A DNA stretch of 46,236 nt from an uncultured Hyphomicrobiales bacterium (GTDB lineage: Bacteria; Pseudomonadota; Alphaproteobacteria; Rhizobiales; Xanthobacteraceae). Below the pieces are notes generated by a model. That model ran no database searches and was not told the DNA's origin. It saw nothing but the letters and a program-made list of their open reading frames with translations. The stretch covers positions 1-46,236 of the forward strand of contig CAIRGJ010000017.1 of the NCBI GenBank assembly GCA_903878085.1, written 5' to 3'. Shown here one piece after another: positions 7,568 to 17,333 of this stretch (its first letter is position 1; every line of letters begins with the position of its first letter). A program made the translations under genes and the position numbers.

Positions 7568-7643
7568 GGGGCCATAGCTCAGCTGGGAGAGCGCCTGCAT
7601 GGCATGCAGGAGGTCAGCGGTTCGATCCCGCTTGGCTCCACCA
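7568..7643 (+). tRNA. tRNA-Ala (anticodon GGC)
   Basis: A complete 76-base cloverleaf. The acceptor stem GGGGCCA pairs with TGGCTCC (one G-U), followed by A and an encoded CCA at 7641-7643. The anticodon stem CCTGC/GCAGG encloses loop ATGGCAT with anticodon GGC at 7601-7603. D-arm (AGCTCAGCTGGGAGAGC) and T-arm (GTTCGATCC) are standard. A strong terminator follows within 10 bases. Confidence 0.98.
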
Positions 7644-10135: not shown

Positions 10136-10164
10136 CTTGAACCTTTAACCGGCCCCACCCATAT
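10136..10164 (+). promoter_or_regulatory. RpoH (sigma-32) heat-shock promoter of hsp20
   Basis: A -35 element CTTGAA at 10136-10141 and a -10 element CCCATAT at 10158-10164 are separated by 16 bp, a near-consensus RpoH promoter. The predicted start point is about 10171, so the mRNA leader would be about 80 nt and consist almost wholly of the hairpins listed next. Confidence 0.8.
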
Positions 10165-10172
10165 TAGCGGGG

Positions 10173-10251
10173 ACCGGACGGGAGTTGCCGCCCGGTTGGG
10201 GTGCCCATGAGGGGCCCCGTCAAAGTCGCTTCAAGCGAGGGCTTTGAGACC
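10173..10251 (+). promoter_or_regulatory. Candidate ROSE-like RNA thermometer in the hsp20 leader
   Basis: Three consecutive hairpins fill the leader. First: ACCGG (10173-10177) with CCGGT (10192-10196), plus inner CGG/CCG around a 6-base loop. Second: GGGG (10198-10201) with CCCC (10215-10218), plus inner CCC/GGG. Third: CAAAGTCGCT (10221-10230) with AGCGA (10234-10238) and CTTTG (10242-10246), leaving GGG (10239-10241) bulged. The third hairpin holds the ribosome binding site GAGGG ten bases before the ATG. The TCGCT opposite it matches the U-(U/C)-GCU signature of ROSE thermometers, which repress small heat shock genes at low temperature in rhizobia. Confidence 0.65.
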
Positions 10252-10677
10252 ATGTCACGAGTACCGTCACTATCCAGTCCGTTCCTGCTGGGCTTCGACG
10301 AAATCGAGCGCGTGCTCGACCGCGTTGCCAAAGGCGCCGACGGCTATCCGCCTTACAACATCGAGCGGCTGGCGCATGACGGGCAAAATCCCGAACGGCT
10401 CCGCATCACCCTGGCCGTCGCCGGATTCACCCGCGACCAACTCGATGTCAGCATCGAGGAAAGTCAGCTGGTCATCCGCGGACGGCAGCAGGACGACAAG
10501 AGCCGGCAATACCTCCACCGCGGCATCGCCGCGCGCCAATTCCAGCGCACCTTCGTGCTGGCGGACGGCATGGAGGTGCTGGGCGCCGACTTGAAAAATG
10601 GATTGTTGTCGATCGATCTGGCGCGGCCGCAAGCCGAACGGATCGTGAAGACGATCGCCATCAACGAGTTGGAATGA
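10252..10677 (+). CDS. Small heat shock protein, Hsp20/alpha-crystallin family (IbpA-like)
   Basis: An ATP-independent chaperone that holds unfolding proteins during heat stress. The 141-residue protein has a short N-terminus (MSRVPSLSSPFLLGFDEIERVLDR read in parts), the alpha-crystallin beta-sandwich from about residue 35 (YNIERL, LRITLAVAGF, LVIRGRQ) and the conserved FQRTFVLADGMEV with a GLLSIDL ending. The ATG at 10252 was chosen because family similarity begins there; in-frame GTG (10201) and ATG (10207) codons further upstream lie inside the leader hairpins. An RpoH promoter and thermometer-like leader precede it. DUF1150 follows after 60 bp. Confidence 0.93.
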   Translation: MSRVPSLSSPFLLGFDEIERVLDRVAKGADGYPPYNIERLAHDGQNPERLRITLAVAGFTRDQLDVSIEESQLVIRGRQQDDKSRQYLHRGIAARQFQRTFVLADGMEVLGADLKNGLLSIDLARPQAERIVKTIAINELE

Positions 10678-10737: not shown

Positions 10738-11013
10738 ATGAATATCGACAAGACGATTGAACCGAACACGATCGCTCCCGCGATCACGCAGGAGGCATTG
10801 GCGCATCTCGGCGACGGCCGTCTGGCTTACGTCAAGACGATCAATTCCGAGGACGTCGCCGCCCTGTTTCCGCAGGCGCCGAAGATCGAGCCGGGCATCA
10901 AGCTGTTTGCCCTGCATGCCGCCGATGGCACGCCGATCATGCTGACCGACACGCGCGAAGCAGCACTTGCCAATGCCTGGAGCCAGGAGCTCGAGGCGAT
11001 GAGCGTGCACTAA
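10738..11013 (+). CDS. DUF1150 family protein
   Basis: A 91-residue protein of unknown function that in alphaproteobacteria commonly sits just downstream of an Hsp20 gene. Visible family features are the LAYVKTINSED region, the Phe-Pro segment, LFALHAADGTPIMLTDTREAALANA and a short acidic end. An AGGAG motif precedes the ATG. It probably belongs to the same heat-shock transcript as hsp20. No catalytic motif or membrane segment is seen. Confidence 0.87.
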   Translation: MNIDKTIEPNTIAPAITQEALAHLGDGRLAYVKTINSEDVAALFPQAPKIEPGIKLFALHAADGTPIMLTDTREAALANAWSQELEAMSVH

Positions 11014-11152: not shown

Positions 11153-11617
11153 CTAGGCGGCGCTGCTCGTGGCCTGTGTCGCCAGCACCGCATAGAGCGC
11201 ATCGGCATCGCCCGATTCGCGCAGTTTGCGCGCGATCTCTGGATCGCGCAGCAGGCGGGCAACGCGCGCCAGCGCCTTGAGATGATCGGCGCCTGCCGCT
11301 TCCGGCGCCAGCAGCAGAAAAATTAAATCGACCGGCTGGCTGTCGAGCGCTTCGAAATCGATCGGCCGCTCCAGACGCGCGAACAAGCCGAACAGCCGGC
11401 CGAGTTTCGGGAGCTTGCCGTGCGGAATTGCGATGCCGTTGCCAACCGCGGTGGAGCCGAGCTTCTCACGCTGCAGCAAGATTTCCAGAATCGCACGTTC
11501 GCTCTGACCCGTGAGTTCGGCCGCGCGCGCGGCGAGCTCCTGGATCGCTTGCTTCTTGCCGTTGACCTTGAGCGCCGGAATAATTGCCGTCGGCGCGACG
11601 AGATCGGTGAGCGTCAT
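11153..11617 (-). CDS. ptsN: PTS IIA-like nitrogen-regulatory protein PtsN (EIIANtr)
   Basis: EIIANtr is the last phospho-acceptor of the nitrogen PTS relay (PtsP-NPr-PtsN) and controls potassium uptake and other targets. The 154-residue protein carries the phospho-histidine motif GIAIPHGKLP with His66 and the family features LVAPTAIIPALKVNGKKQAI and LIFLLLAP. I chose the ATG at 11615-11617; a TTG 12 bases upstream adds four residues. It closes the rpoN-hpf-ptsN cluster, a common arrangement. Confidence 0.95.
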   Translation of the reverse strand: MTLTDLVAPTAIIPALKVNGKKQAIQELAARAAELTGQSERAILEILLQREKLGSTAVGNGIAIPHGKLPKLGRLFGLFARLERPIDFEALDSQPVDLIFLLLAPEAAGADHLKALARVARLLRDPEIARKLRESGDADALYAVLATQATSSAA

Positions 11618-11737
11618 GGATCTGTCCAATGATCGTAAATGGCAGCGTGGACTTGTAATGGGTTGTGAGGGTCGCGGCCCTTATAGAGCGGCGGGCGGCA
11701 AGGTCAATGGTCGCGGTAGCCGCGTAGCACAGCGCAA

Positions 11738-11858
11738 CTAGGAATTGGCACGGTCCGAAAACAGGCATGCTGCGGCAAAACCGCCTGCGACACGTCGAAT
11801 CGAGCGCATTCGGAGACGGCGCGAGGCCATCCGGCAATTTCGTCGCGATAATGGACGG
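11738..11858 (-). other. Possible decayed C-terminal domain of hpf
   Basis: Directly after the hpf stop the same frame reads PSIIATKLPDG, and another frame reads AVSECARFDVSQAV. Both faintly resemble the start (PVIIAE) and the VSEAVM-DLS helix of the C-terminal dimerisation domain of long HPF proteins. No intact frame covers the region. This is a weak, tentative match. Confidence 0.25.
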
Positions 11859-12170
11859 TCAGCCGCCGCGGCGGCCTTGCTGATCCTTGCGGCGGCGCTT
11901 GTAGCGGCGAAGCTGCTTCTCGATGCGCTCCGACGCCTGCGCCGCGCTGTCGTAAGCATCGGCCGCCATGCCTTCGGCCTCCAGCAAGGTGCCGGAGTCC
12001 AGATGCAAAAGACATTCGGTGCGATAGCCGAAACCGTCTCTGCCGACGGTGGCGTGGCCGGAATAGCCGCCGTCAAAATATTTGGATGTGGCTTCTGCGA
12101 CGCGGTCCGTGATCCGTTGTGACAGGGCCGAGCCGATATTGATGTTCTTTCCCGATACACGCAAAGGCAT
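11859..12170 (-). CDS. hpf: Ribosome hibernation promoting factor, short form
   Basis: HPF binds the 30S subunit near the decoding site and inactivates ribosomes in stationary phase. The 103-residue protein covers the N-terminal ribosome-binding domain: MPLRVSGKNINIG, the KYFDGGYSGHATVGRDGFGYRTEC strand region read in parts, LHLDSGTLLEAEG and a basic end RRYKRRRKDQ. Hyphomicrobiales homologues I know are long forms near 190-200 residues with a C-terminal dimerisation domain; here a TGA ends the protein after GRRGG. The gene lies between rpoN and ptsN as usual. Confidence 0.88.
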   Translation of the reverse strand: MPLRVSGKNINIGSALSQRITDRVAEATSKYFDGGYSGHATVGRDGFGYRTECLLHLDSGTLLEAEGMAADAYDSAAQASERIEKQLRRYKRRRKDQQGRRGG

Positions 12171-12293
12171 TAGTTACGCCTCCATTGCCGGGCGCGGAAT
12201 CGCCGCGCTATTTTAAGCGGTGAGCTAAAAATCCCAGTTCAGATAAGTCCTCGTTTCGATCCGGTAAGCTTGGCACGTTTCGCCTAGAAAATC

Positions 12294-13823
12294 CTAGGCA
12301 TTGGCGGCCTGTTTCTCACGCCTTCTCTGCACTGAGGACGGAATCCGCATCGCCTCGCGGTACTTGGCAACCGTGCGGCGCGCGATATCGATGCCGGCCT
12401 CGCGCAAGCGGTCGACGATGGTGTCGTCCGACAGTACGTCAACGGCGGTCTCGGCATCGATCAAGTGACGAATACGATGGCGCACCGCTTCCGCCGAATG
12501 CGCTTCGCCACCATCGGACGCCGCAATCGACGACGTGAAGAAATATTTCAGCTCAAAGATGCCGCGGCTGGTCGCCATGTATTTATTGGCGGTGACGCGC
12601 GACACCGTCGACTCGTGCATGCCGATGGCGTCGGCAACGGTCTTGAGATTGAGCGGGCGCAGATGCTGCACGCCTTTGATGAAGAAGCCGTCCTGCTGGC
12701 GTACGATCTCGCTCGACACCTTGAGAATCGTCTTGGCGCGCTGATCGAGCGCGCGCACCAGCCAGGTCGCGGTCTGCAGACAATCGGCGAGATAGATTTT
12801 GTCTTTTTCGTTGCGCGTGGTTTTCGATACTTGCGCATGATAGCGCTGGCTGATCAGGACTTTCGGCAACGTGTCGGAATTGAGTTCGACCTGCCAGCTG
12901 CCATCGGACGCCGCGCGAACATAGACGTCGGGAACGATCGGTTGCACCAGCGTCGAGCCGAAGGCCAGGCCCGGTTTCGGATTGAGATTGCGGATCTCGG
13001 CTATCATGTCGGTGAGATCTTCGTCGCCGACGCCGCACAGCCGGCGCAACGCCGCAAGATCGCGCTTGGCCAAGAGCTCGAGGTGTTCGACCAGCGCCTG
13101 CATCGCCGGGTCGTAGCGGTTGCGGTCCTTGAGCTGCAGCGCAAGACATTCGGTGAGCGAGCGCGCGCAGACGCCGGGCGGATCGAACGTCTGCAGAACC
13201 GCGAGCACGGTCTCGACGTCGCTTCGTGACGCACCGAGTTTCTCGGCGACGGCGTCGAGATCGCCGGTCAGGTAACCGGTCTCGTCAACCATATCGACCA
13301 GATAGCGGCCAATCATGCGTTGCGCCGGATCGGAAATCGCCAGCGCCATCTGCTCGGCGAGATGATCGGCAAGCGTGATCTCAGCGGTGACGAAGGATTC
13401 CAGATTGTAGCTGCTATCCTCGGAGCCGCCGGTGCCGACGCCCGACCACTCCGAATAGCTCGGTGGCGGGGTTTCGGTCGGCGCAGTTTTGGCGCCGCCG
13501 TCGTCGGGAAATACGTTCTCGAGTTCGGTGCCGAGACTTTGCTCCATCGAGGCACGGTTGGTTTCGAGATCCTCGCCCATCCAGTCGGCGGTCGGCGACA
13601 GGTCCTCGTTGCGCTCGATGGCGGGGGCTTCGGGCTCCGCGCCCGGCGCTGAATTATCCTCGGCCTCGGCGCGTTCCAGCAGGGGGTTACGTTCGAGTTC
13701 GCCTTCGACGTAGGCGGCCAGATCGAGGCTGGAGAGCTGCAGCAGCTTGATGGCCTGCATCAGCTGCGGCGTCATCACCAGCGCTTGGCTCTGACGGAAC
13801 TCTAGTCTTTGAGATAGCGCCAT
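12294..13823 (-). CDS. rpoN: RNA polymerase sigma-54 factor
   Basis: Sigma-54 directs polymerase to -24/-12 promoters of nitrogen-related and other genes and needs an AAA+ activator. The 509-residue length is normal. Region I (residues 1-50) is glutamine/leucine-rich: QRLEFRQSQALVMTPQL, LQLSSLDLA, ELERNPLLE. An acidic region II follows, then the core-binding and HTH domains (AIGMHESTVSRVTANKYM) and the RpoN box ARRTVAKYRE at about 481-490. It lies between lptB and hpf with 140 bp and 123 bp gaps, so it may have its own promoter. Confidence 0.97.
   Translation of the reverse strand: MALSQRLEFRQSQALVMTPQLMQAIKLLQLSSLDLAAYVEGELERNPLLERAEAEDNSAPGAEPEAPAIERNEDLSPTADWMGEDLETNRASMEQSLGTELENVFPDDGGAKTAPTETPPPSYSEWSGVGTGGSEDSSYNLESFVTAEITLADHLAEQMALAISDPAQRMIGRYLVDMVDETGYLTGDLDAVAEKLGASRSDVETVLAVLQTFDPPGVCARSLTECLALQLKDRNRYDPAMQALVEHLELLAKRDLAALRRLCGVGDEDLTDMIAEIRNLNPKPGLAFGSTLVQPIVPDVYVRAASDGSWQVELNSDTLPKVLISQRYHAQVSKTTRNEKDKIYLADCLQTATWLVRALDQRAKTILKVSSEIVRQQDGFFIKGVQHLRPLNLKTVADAIGMHESTVSRVTANKYMATSRGIFELKYFFTSSIAASDGGEAHSAEAVRHRIRHLIDAETAVDVLSDDTIVDRLREAGIDIARRTVAKYREAMRIPSSVQRRREKQAANA

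Positions 13824-17248: not shown

Positions 17249-17333
<85 letters not shown>

Follow-up and report, generated by a model that had tools for sequence, protein, structure and literature searches.

A divergent, probable ROSE-type RNA thermometer in the leader of a small heat shock gene paired with larA in an uncultured member of the Hyphomicrobiales

A small heat shock gene (Hsp20, PF00011, Pfam E 1.5e-16) occupies positions 10252 to 10677 of the plus strand of the window, by which we mean the whole stretch of 46,236 nucleotides analysed, one contig of the 4.4-Mb genome of an uncultured Hyphomicrobiales bacterium. Its leader raises the question of whether translation of the chaperone is controlled by temperature through the RNA itself. 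A sequence-only reading had proposed a heat shock promoter together with a ROSE-like leader in front of this gene. We consider it highly probable that the transcript carrying this gene and its neighbour larA begins with a ROSE-type RNA thermometer and is driven by a sigma32-type promoter. The proposal is supported by the promoter, the conservation of the core and compensatory base pairs, and further by ROSE being the top, though weak, Rfam match and by the ROSE-type end of the leader of an ibpA-type paralogue in the same genome. Named close relatives of the gene include records from Pseudolabrys, Bradyrhizobium, Afipia, Tardiphaga and Rhodopseudomonas, among others. The start codon was set at the ATG at 10252; an upstream GTG at 10201 was rejected because leader lengths vary freely in relatives and conservation begins at 10252.

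The gene larA (DUF1150, PF06620, Lon activator family; Pfam E 5.3e-32) follows on the same strand at 10738 to 11013, 60 nt 3′ of the Hsp20 gene. DUF1150 has been identified as LarA, which activates the Lon protease, and in Caulobacter larA and the small heat shock gene shsp2 form a predicted operon under sigma32 (PMC10665427). On account of its DUF1150 neighbour, we treat the Hsp20 gene of the window as the putative homologue of Caulobacter shsp2. In both loci a small heat shock gene is followed by DUF1150/LarA, with sigma32 control reported there and a sigma32-type promoter present here. The DUF1150 protein of the window ends in the residues VH; mutation of the histidine at the end of LarA is reported to perturb its interaction with Lon, and V86 and V88 are called highly conserved (PMC10665427). 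A DUF1150 gene was detected 3′ of the small heat shock gene at 109 of 130 loci from close relatives (L001-L130), the remaining 21 loci ending within 400 nt, and at only 41 of 89 loci sampled across the class; the pairing is thus common, not universal. The main text of PMC10665427 makes no mention of an RNA thermometer, ROSE, the UTR or translational control, and our literature search returned no paper with both DUF1150 and Hsp20. We infer that larA shares the transcript of the chaperone gene and would profit from control by the leader, which suggests that a gene pair described as sigma32-controlled in Caulobacter may also carry a translational heat switch. Facing the pair on the minus strand (11153-13823) are genes with Pfam matches to PTS_EIIA_2 (ptsN-like), Ribosomal_S30AE (hpf-like) and sigma-54 (rpoN).

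The RpoH (sigma32)-type promoter was confirmed by reading: a −35 element CTTGAA (10136-10141, plus strand) is separated by 16 bp from a −10 element CCCATAT (10158-10164), and the pattern is conserved in relatives. The mRNA start predicted from this promoter, near 10171, is plausible. From the 130 leaders of L001-L130, ten were dropped as truncated, masked or duplicate, and the strict pattern CTTGNN-N14-18-[CT]CATAT was present in 119 of the 120 valid, non-redundant leaders, the spacer being 15 or 16 bp in relatives with the pattern. Class-wide the strict pattern was found in only 15 of 87 leaders; a looser sigma32-like pattern was found at 52 of 89 class loci versus 43 of 646 other windows. 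Relatives have 62 to 131 nt between −10 element and ATG, some of them just 62-70 nt. Seven leaders of the same genus (L020-L022, L029-L032) carry, between promoter and hairpin 2, an insertion of ~35-45 nt that looks like an additional GC-rich stretch, and have 123-131 nt between −10 element and ATG compared to about 88 otherwise. Another relative, L050, shows several near-repeats of the GAGGGCTTT / AAGGGCTTT type with an ATG between them, 5′ of the small heat shock start, possibly repeated SD-like units.

The minimum free energy (MFE) structure of 10171-10265 contains the three hairpins that had been claimed for the leader. Hairpin 1 spans 10172 to 10197. Hairpin 2 (10198-10218), GGGGU[G]CCC-AUGA-GGGGCCCC, carries a bulged G at 10203. 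Hairpin 3 (10220-10247), UCAAAGUC[G]CUU-CAAGC-GAGGGCUUUGA, is the presumed thermosensor, all three lying on the plus strand. In its MFE form UCAAAGUC is paired with GGCUUUGA, G10228 is bulged and CUU pairs with GAG, leaving the Shine-Dalgarno (SD) sequence GAGGG (10237-10241) wholly paired within the hairpin. The ROSE signature UCGCU (10226-10230), recognized by fold and core conservation, includes the bulged G10228. The last hairpin thus does run across the ribosome binding site with TCGCT opposite the SD, as had been read from the sequence, and the description of the leader as compact, GC-rich and divergent in sequence holds as well. The detail that only GGG would be bulged did not survive: every base of the SD is paired in the MFE, and the one bulge, G10228, lies on the anti-SD strand. 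A fold of the 28-nt hairpin with the SD in a bulge exists as a suboptimal structure (−8.7 compared to −9.2 kcal/mol for the MFE at 37°C) and was rejected as the main state, being 0.5 kcal/mol less stable. The folding energy of the leader is ordinary (z −1.04; 34 of 200 shuffles fold equally well). By folding energy alone the leader is no better than chance; the case rests on conservation.

The genus set comprised 36 genomes including the window, from which 34 full-length orthologues were obtained (G024 yielded a fragment at a contig end and G028 none). Promoter, hairpin core and hairpin 2 were present in all 34 leaders. Among the 120 valid leaders of L001-L130, the hairpin 3 core, U(C/U)GCU with its bulged G and AGG over the SD (searched as T[TC]GC[TC]..AGG), was found in 117 and the upstream bulged-G stem of hairpin 2 in 115. 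In a MAFFT alignment of 116 leaders, which misplaces hairpin 2 in part, three columns are invariant, and the bulged G occupies one of them. Pairing in the genus was analysed in 27 leaders, the seven with the long insertion being left out. All ten consensus pairs of hairpin 3 are intact in 27 of 27 leaders, and eight of the ten never vary, too little variation for covariation to be seen; this near-invariance hints at a constraint beyond pairing. Hairpin 2 showed two-sided changes in four of its six pairs. Over these leaders 97.9% of the cells were paired, compared to 95.9 ± 0.3% after shuffling and 28.6-67.3% in slid registers. Hairpin 1 is absent or unpaired in relatives: RNAalifold assigned it no pairs in the 27 genus leaders, and in some relatives −10 element and ATG are just 62-70 nt apart. 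It was therefore rejected as a conserved part and, judged by these comparisons, is dispensable.

For the class-level analysis 190 genomes were sampled evenly over the class, 128 of which had a small heat shock match at E ≤ 1e-15; 89 loci, one per genome, were taken from among the matches listed, ~10 listed matches of the same type being left out. Because MAFFT had misplaced hairpin 2 in part, pairing was counted by a script in a register fixed without reference to pairing, by which 76 of the 89 loci were scored. In hairpin 3, 201 of 304 cells pair, compared to 166.6 ± 6.9 (maximum 191) in 2000 shuffles that ignore the relatedness of the sequences, and slid registers gave fewer paired cells than the true one. 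Next to the core, 45 of the 76 loci have a C-G pair and 14 a G-C pair; the two outer pairs counted are held in only 37 and 33. Compensatory changes, which had been suggested as a check on orthologous hsp20 leaders, were thus found class-wide in hairpin 3 and genus-wide in hairpin 2. After cleaning, the core was present in 67, hairpin 2 in 63 and both hairpins in 52 of 87 class-wide leaders, the hairpin 3 core being absent from 20 of the 87. These data add a divergent ROSE lineage that scores under the Rfam cut-off and precedes this one gene in most of the leaders sampled across the class.

According to the thermometer reading, UCGCU and the SD AGG(A/G) would be paired in the cold, in a hairpin that a single bulged G weakens, and ribosomes would bind poorly. 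Upon warming the imperfect helix would loosen and free the SD, so that under heat the chaperone would be translated from an mRNA that is also raised by sigma32. Opening of hairpin 3 with temperature in the cell, with control of translation as its consequence, is the conditional step of this scheme.

How close is the leader to known ROSE elements? In a scan with 4227 Rfam families, ROSE (RF00435) ranked first and matched over its full length at 10174-10249, with 14.7 bits and E 5.8. Running the ROSE model thus returned the proposed family at the exact site, at a score far under the gathering score of 45. Filing under RF00435 was consequently rejected, there being no match at gathering threshold in the window; the sole Rfam matches at that threshold are two tRNA genes at 7568-7640 (plus strand) and 17252-17333 (minus strand). 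Across 19 further loci four matches reached E ≤ 10; two of them were to ROSE, at L035 (24.7 bits) and L044 (24.4 bits), and each of these two ends at the start codon. RF00435 gave no match at E ≤ 0.001 in the window's own genome, with 150 of 195 candidates scored and silent controls, and was not among the matches listed in 40 class loci (two sets of 20), where chance matches were many. A ROSE_3 match in L202 (23.3 bits) lies, by its coordinates, away from the leader. In nine genomes RF00435 passed its cut-off in four (five places), always before ibpA-type small heat shock genes, and was silent at the shsp2-type gene; as 150 of 207-605 candidates were scored per genome, this silence is no proof of absence. 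The leader probably works like a ROSE element without being an accepted member of RF00435.

A model built from 42 shsp2-type leaders only (R1) was run on 24 loci with ibpA-type paralogues or RF00435 matches and produced 12 matches at E ≤ 10. Nine of these (L135, L153, L146, L144, L147, L145, L148, L150 and L140; E 7.8e-4 to 1.7) are located at the start codon of the small heat shock gene and on its strand; the others are one further up in the leader of L133 (E 0.039) and two elsewhere in L132 (E 0.13 and 1.1). Leaders of the shsp2 and ibpA types therefore resemble each other, with modest significance. Over the window's own genome R1 detected only the window leader, a member of its training set, with 150 of 1541 candidates scored. 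The second small heat shock gene of this genome, of the ibpA type (L141, G000:C13:89300-90140), has a leader ending in CATGTCGCTC..GAGGATATG, the classical ROSE form, and this leader was listed neither by Rfam (RF00435, E ≤ 10) nor by R1.

The features given for ROSE-like elements in PMC3669281 (sections 23-24) and PMC11342760 can be followed through the leader. U(U/C)GCU is imperfectly paired with the SD in the 3′-terminal hairpin of the predicted fold, a bulged G (G10228, in MFE and consensus) stands opposite the SD, further hairpins, of which the description has one to three, lie upstream (hairpin 2 conserved, hairpin 1 by the window fold), and the element occupies the 5′ UTR of a small heat shock gene with a sigma32 promoter read from the sequence. 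With RF00435 elements it shares the small heat shock gene, the SD in a 3′ hairpin with U(U/C)GCU, the single bulged G opposite the SD, and a 5′ hairpin with an unpaired G before CC. It differs in its outer stem, CAAAG/CUUUG compared to CAU/AUG in the paralogue of the same genome, and presumably in that U-C-[G]-C-U can form a C-G pair where UUGCU forms a wobble. In the short ROSE-like element of Pseudomonas ibpA, too, a conserved and stable hairpin precedes a U(U/C)GCU/SD hairpin, behind a sigma32 promoter (PMC3669281), but this element belongs to another class and its sensor hairpins have −4.1 to −7.6 kcal/mol compared to −10.0 kcal/mol in the window. In ROSE-G elements, which precede ABC transporter genes, the anti-SD strand likewise bulges a G (PMC12857270); in contrast to the window, their signature is CUGCU and a second G is bulged opposite it in the SD. 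Membership in ROSE-G was rejected, since the window has UCGCU and every SD base is paired in its MFE. The sequence CUGCU does occur in one relative, L043.

All class A small heat shock genes of M. loti, hspH included, are reported to have ROSE elements (PMC3989490, section 11), and ROSE is mentioned in Caulobacter crescentus (PMC3669281, section 24). The kind of element is thus already known, and the ROSE element of the window gene may already be listed in earlier literature. In the former source (section 11) the ROSE-credited hspH of M. loti, a possible orthologue of the window gene, was uninduced in one heat shock, a point against the thermometer reading. The leader is probably a real ROSE-type element, divergent in sequence, to which the present analysis adds the link to LarA and a motif common to both hairpins.

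This motif emerges from the comparison of the two hairpins. Hairpin 2 can be written as NNNN-Y-[G]-CY-loop-GG-R-NNNN, where the bracketed G is bulged, and its core is that of hairpin 3, Y-[G]-C-Y opposite R-G-G (YGCY/RGG). Counting stems of at least four pairs, 64 of 88 class leaders contain this form, compared to 92 of 3038 windows elsewhere in these loci; for L001-L130, truncated and duplicate loci included, the figures are 123 of 130 leaders and 110 of 4695 other windows. Where a single base is bulged in this geometry, it is G in 54 of 74 class leaders versus 399 of 1578 cases elsewhere in the loci. Leaders of ibpA-type paralogues contain the form in 12 of 23 cases; it is absent from the other 11, including L141 of the window's own genome. 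In the structure line of the Rfam ROSE consensus, the first hairpin likewise leaves a G unpaired at this position, before CC. The leader of E. coli K-12 ibpA (L245) shares the bulged-G motif hairpin and TCGCT before AGGAG, its MFE containing GGACGC[G]CC-TGAT-GGGTGTTC, of the form of hairpin 2; it differs in being gammaproteobacterial, in belonging to another gene lineage and in having more hairpins in the predicted fold. The available text of PMC3669281, PMC11342760 and PMC12857270 holds no description of the common motif, a weak basis for calling it unreported. The role of the 5′ hairpins of ROSE elements is a stated open question (PMC3669281, section 24), for which YGCY/RGG offers a concrete target. 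A rather improbable idea is that the upstream hairpin is a second copy of the sensor motif, acting not as a passive folding aid but as a docking site for the small heat shock protein in self-repression. If so, one leader would read temperature through hairpin 3 and free chaperone through hairpin 2, and in larA lineages the same leader would set both holding and Lon proteolysis.

Could the leader, then, be mainly a site of autorepression? Like E. coli IbpA, Hsp20 would bind its own leader and block translation until titrated by unfolded protein, and temperature would act via the protein more than via RNA melting. E. coli IbpA represses itself through its 5′ UTR with Arg93 as an essential residue, and R93 is common in alphaproteobacterial IbpAs, for which the authors suggest self-repression too (PMC10474464). 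Arginine occupies this column in all 218 aligned orthologues, the window protein included (129 of 129 and 89 of 89), and IbpB has glutamine there; conservation of hairpin 2, which does not touch the SD, fits as well. However, the arginine may be kept for other reasons in the small heat shock family, and autorepression can coexist with a thermometer: both roles are described for the leader of E. coli ibpA (PMC8155344). As the main function of the leader autorepression appears unlikely, if still the strongest of the alternatives. In view of the arginine in all aligned proteins, a second layer of control by the chaperone, added to the thermometer, is plausible and no more.

The folding model bears on whether hairpin 3 opens at all. 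The predicted unpaired fraction of the window SD rises from 0.19 at 25°C to 0.30 at 42°C and 0.33 at 50°C; over 128 leaders, duplicates included, median exposure rises from 0.08 at 25°C to 0.18. Control sites (n=118; the first AGGR..ATG 3′ of the small heat shock gene, presumed starts) showed exposures of 0.62 to 0.63. The low exposure compared to these controls argues that the hairpin masks the SD. The nearest-neighbour model gave no sharp opening on warming, the increase being modest. This pattern would also suit a constitutive mask, in which the hairpin merely sets a low translation rate and heat control is wholly transcriptional via sigma32: hairpin 3 is predicted to be mostly closed at 42°C, it is more stable than the sensor hairpins of Pseudomonas (PMC3669281), and sigma32 control is reported for the Caulobacter operon (PMC10665427). 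Yet the bulged G specific to ROSE is conserved across families together with UCGCU, and a plain mask would presumably need no bulge. With G10228 deleted in silico, hairpin 3 became 3.8 kcal/mol more stable at 37°C (−13.8 compared to −10.0 kcal/mol), and in an oppF thermometer the corresponding deletion notably lowered heat induction (PMC11342760). We regard the constitutive mask as improbable.

A genus-specific two-state switch would have CGCU/AGCG pairing bulge the GAGGG and prevail at high temperature. Here the near-equal energies of the two folds of hairpin 3 at 37°C, which become equal at 50°C, are in favour, as is GCG directly 5′ of AGG in 27 of 34 genus leaders. The crossing nevertheless lies above physiological temperature in the model, and GCG precedes AGG in only 18 of 92 leaders of L035-L130 and in 1 of 69 class leaders counted. 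Since the GCG-AGG sequence is rare outside the genus, the switch is not a shared mechanism, and we give it a low probability even within the genus. That the hairpins arose by chance in a GC-rich leader, as the z-score of −1.04 might suggest, is hardly credible against their conservation and the compensatory changes across genus, order and class.
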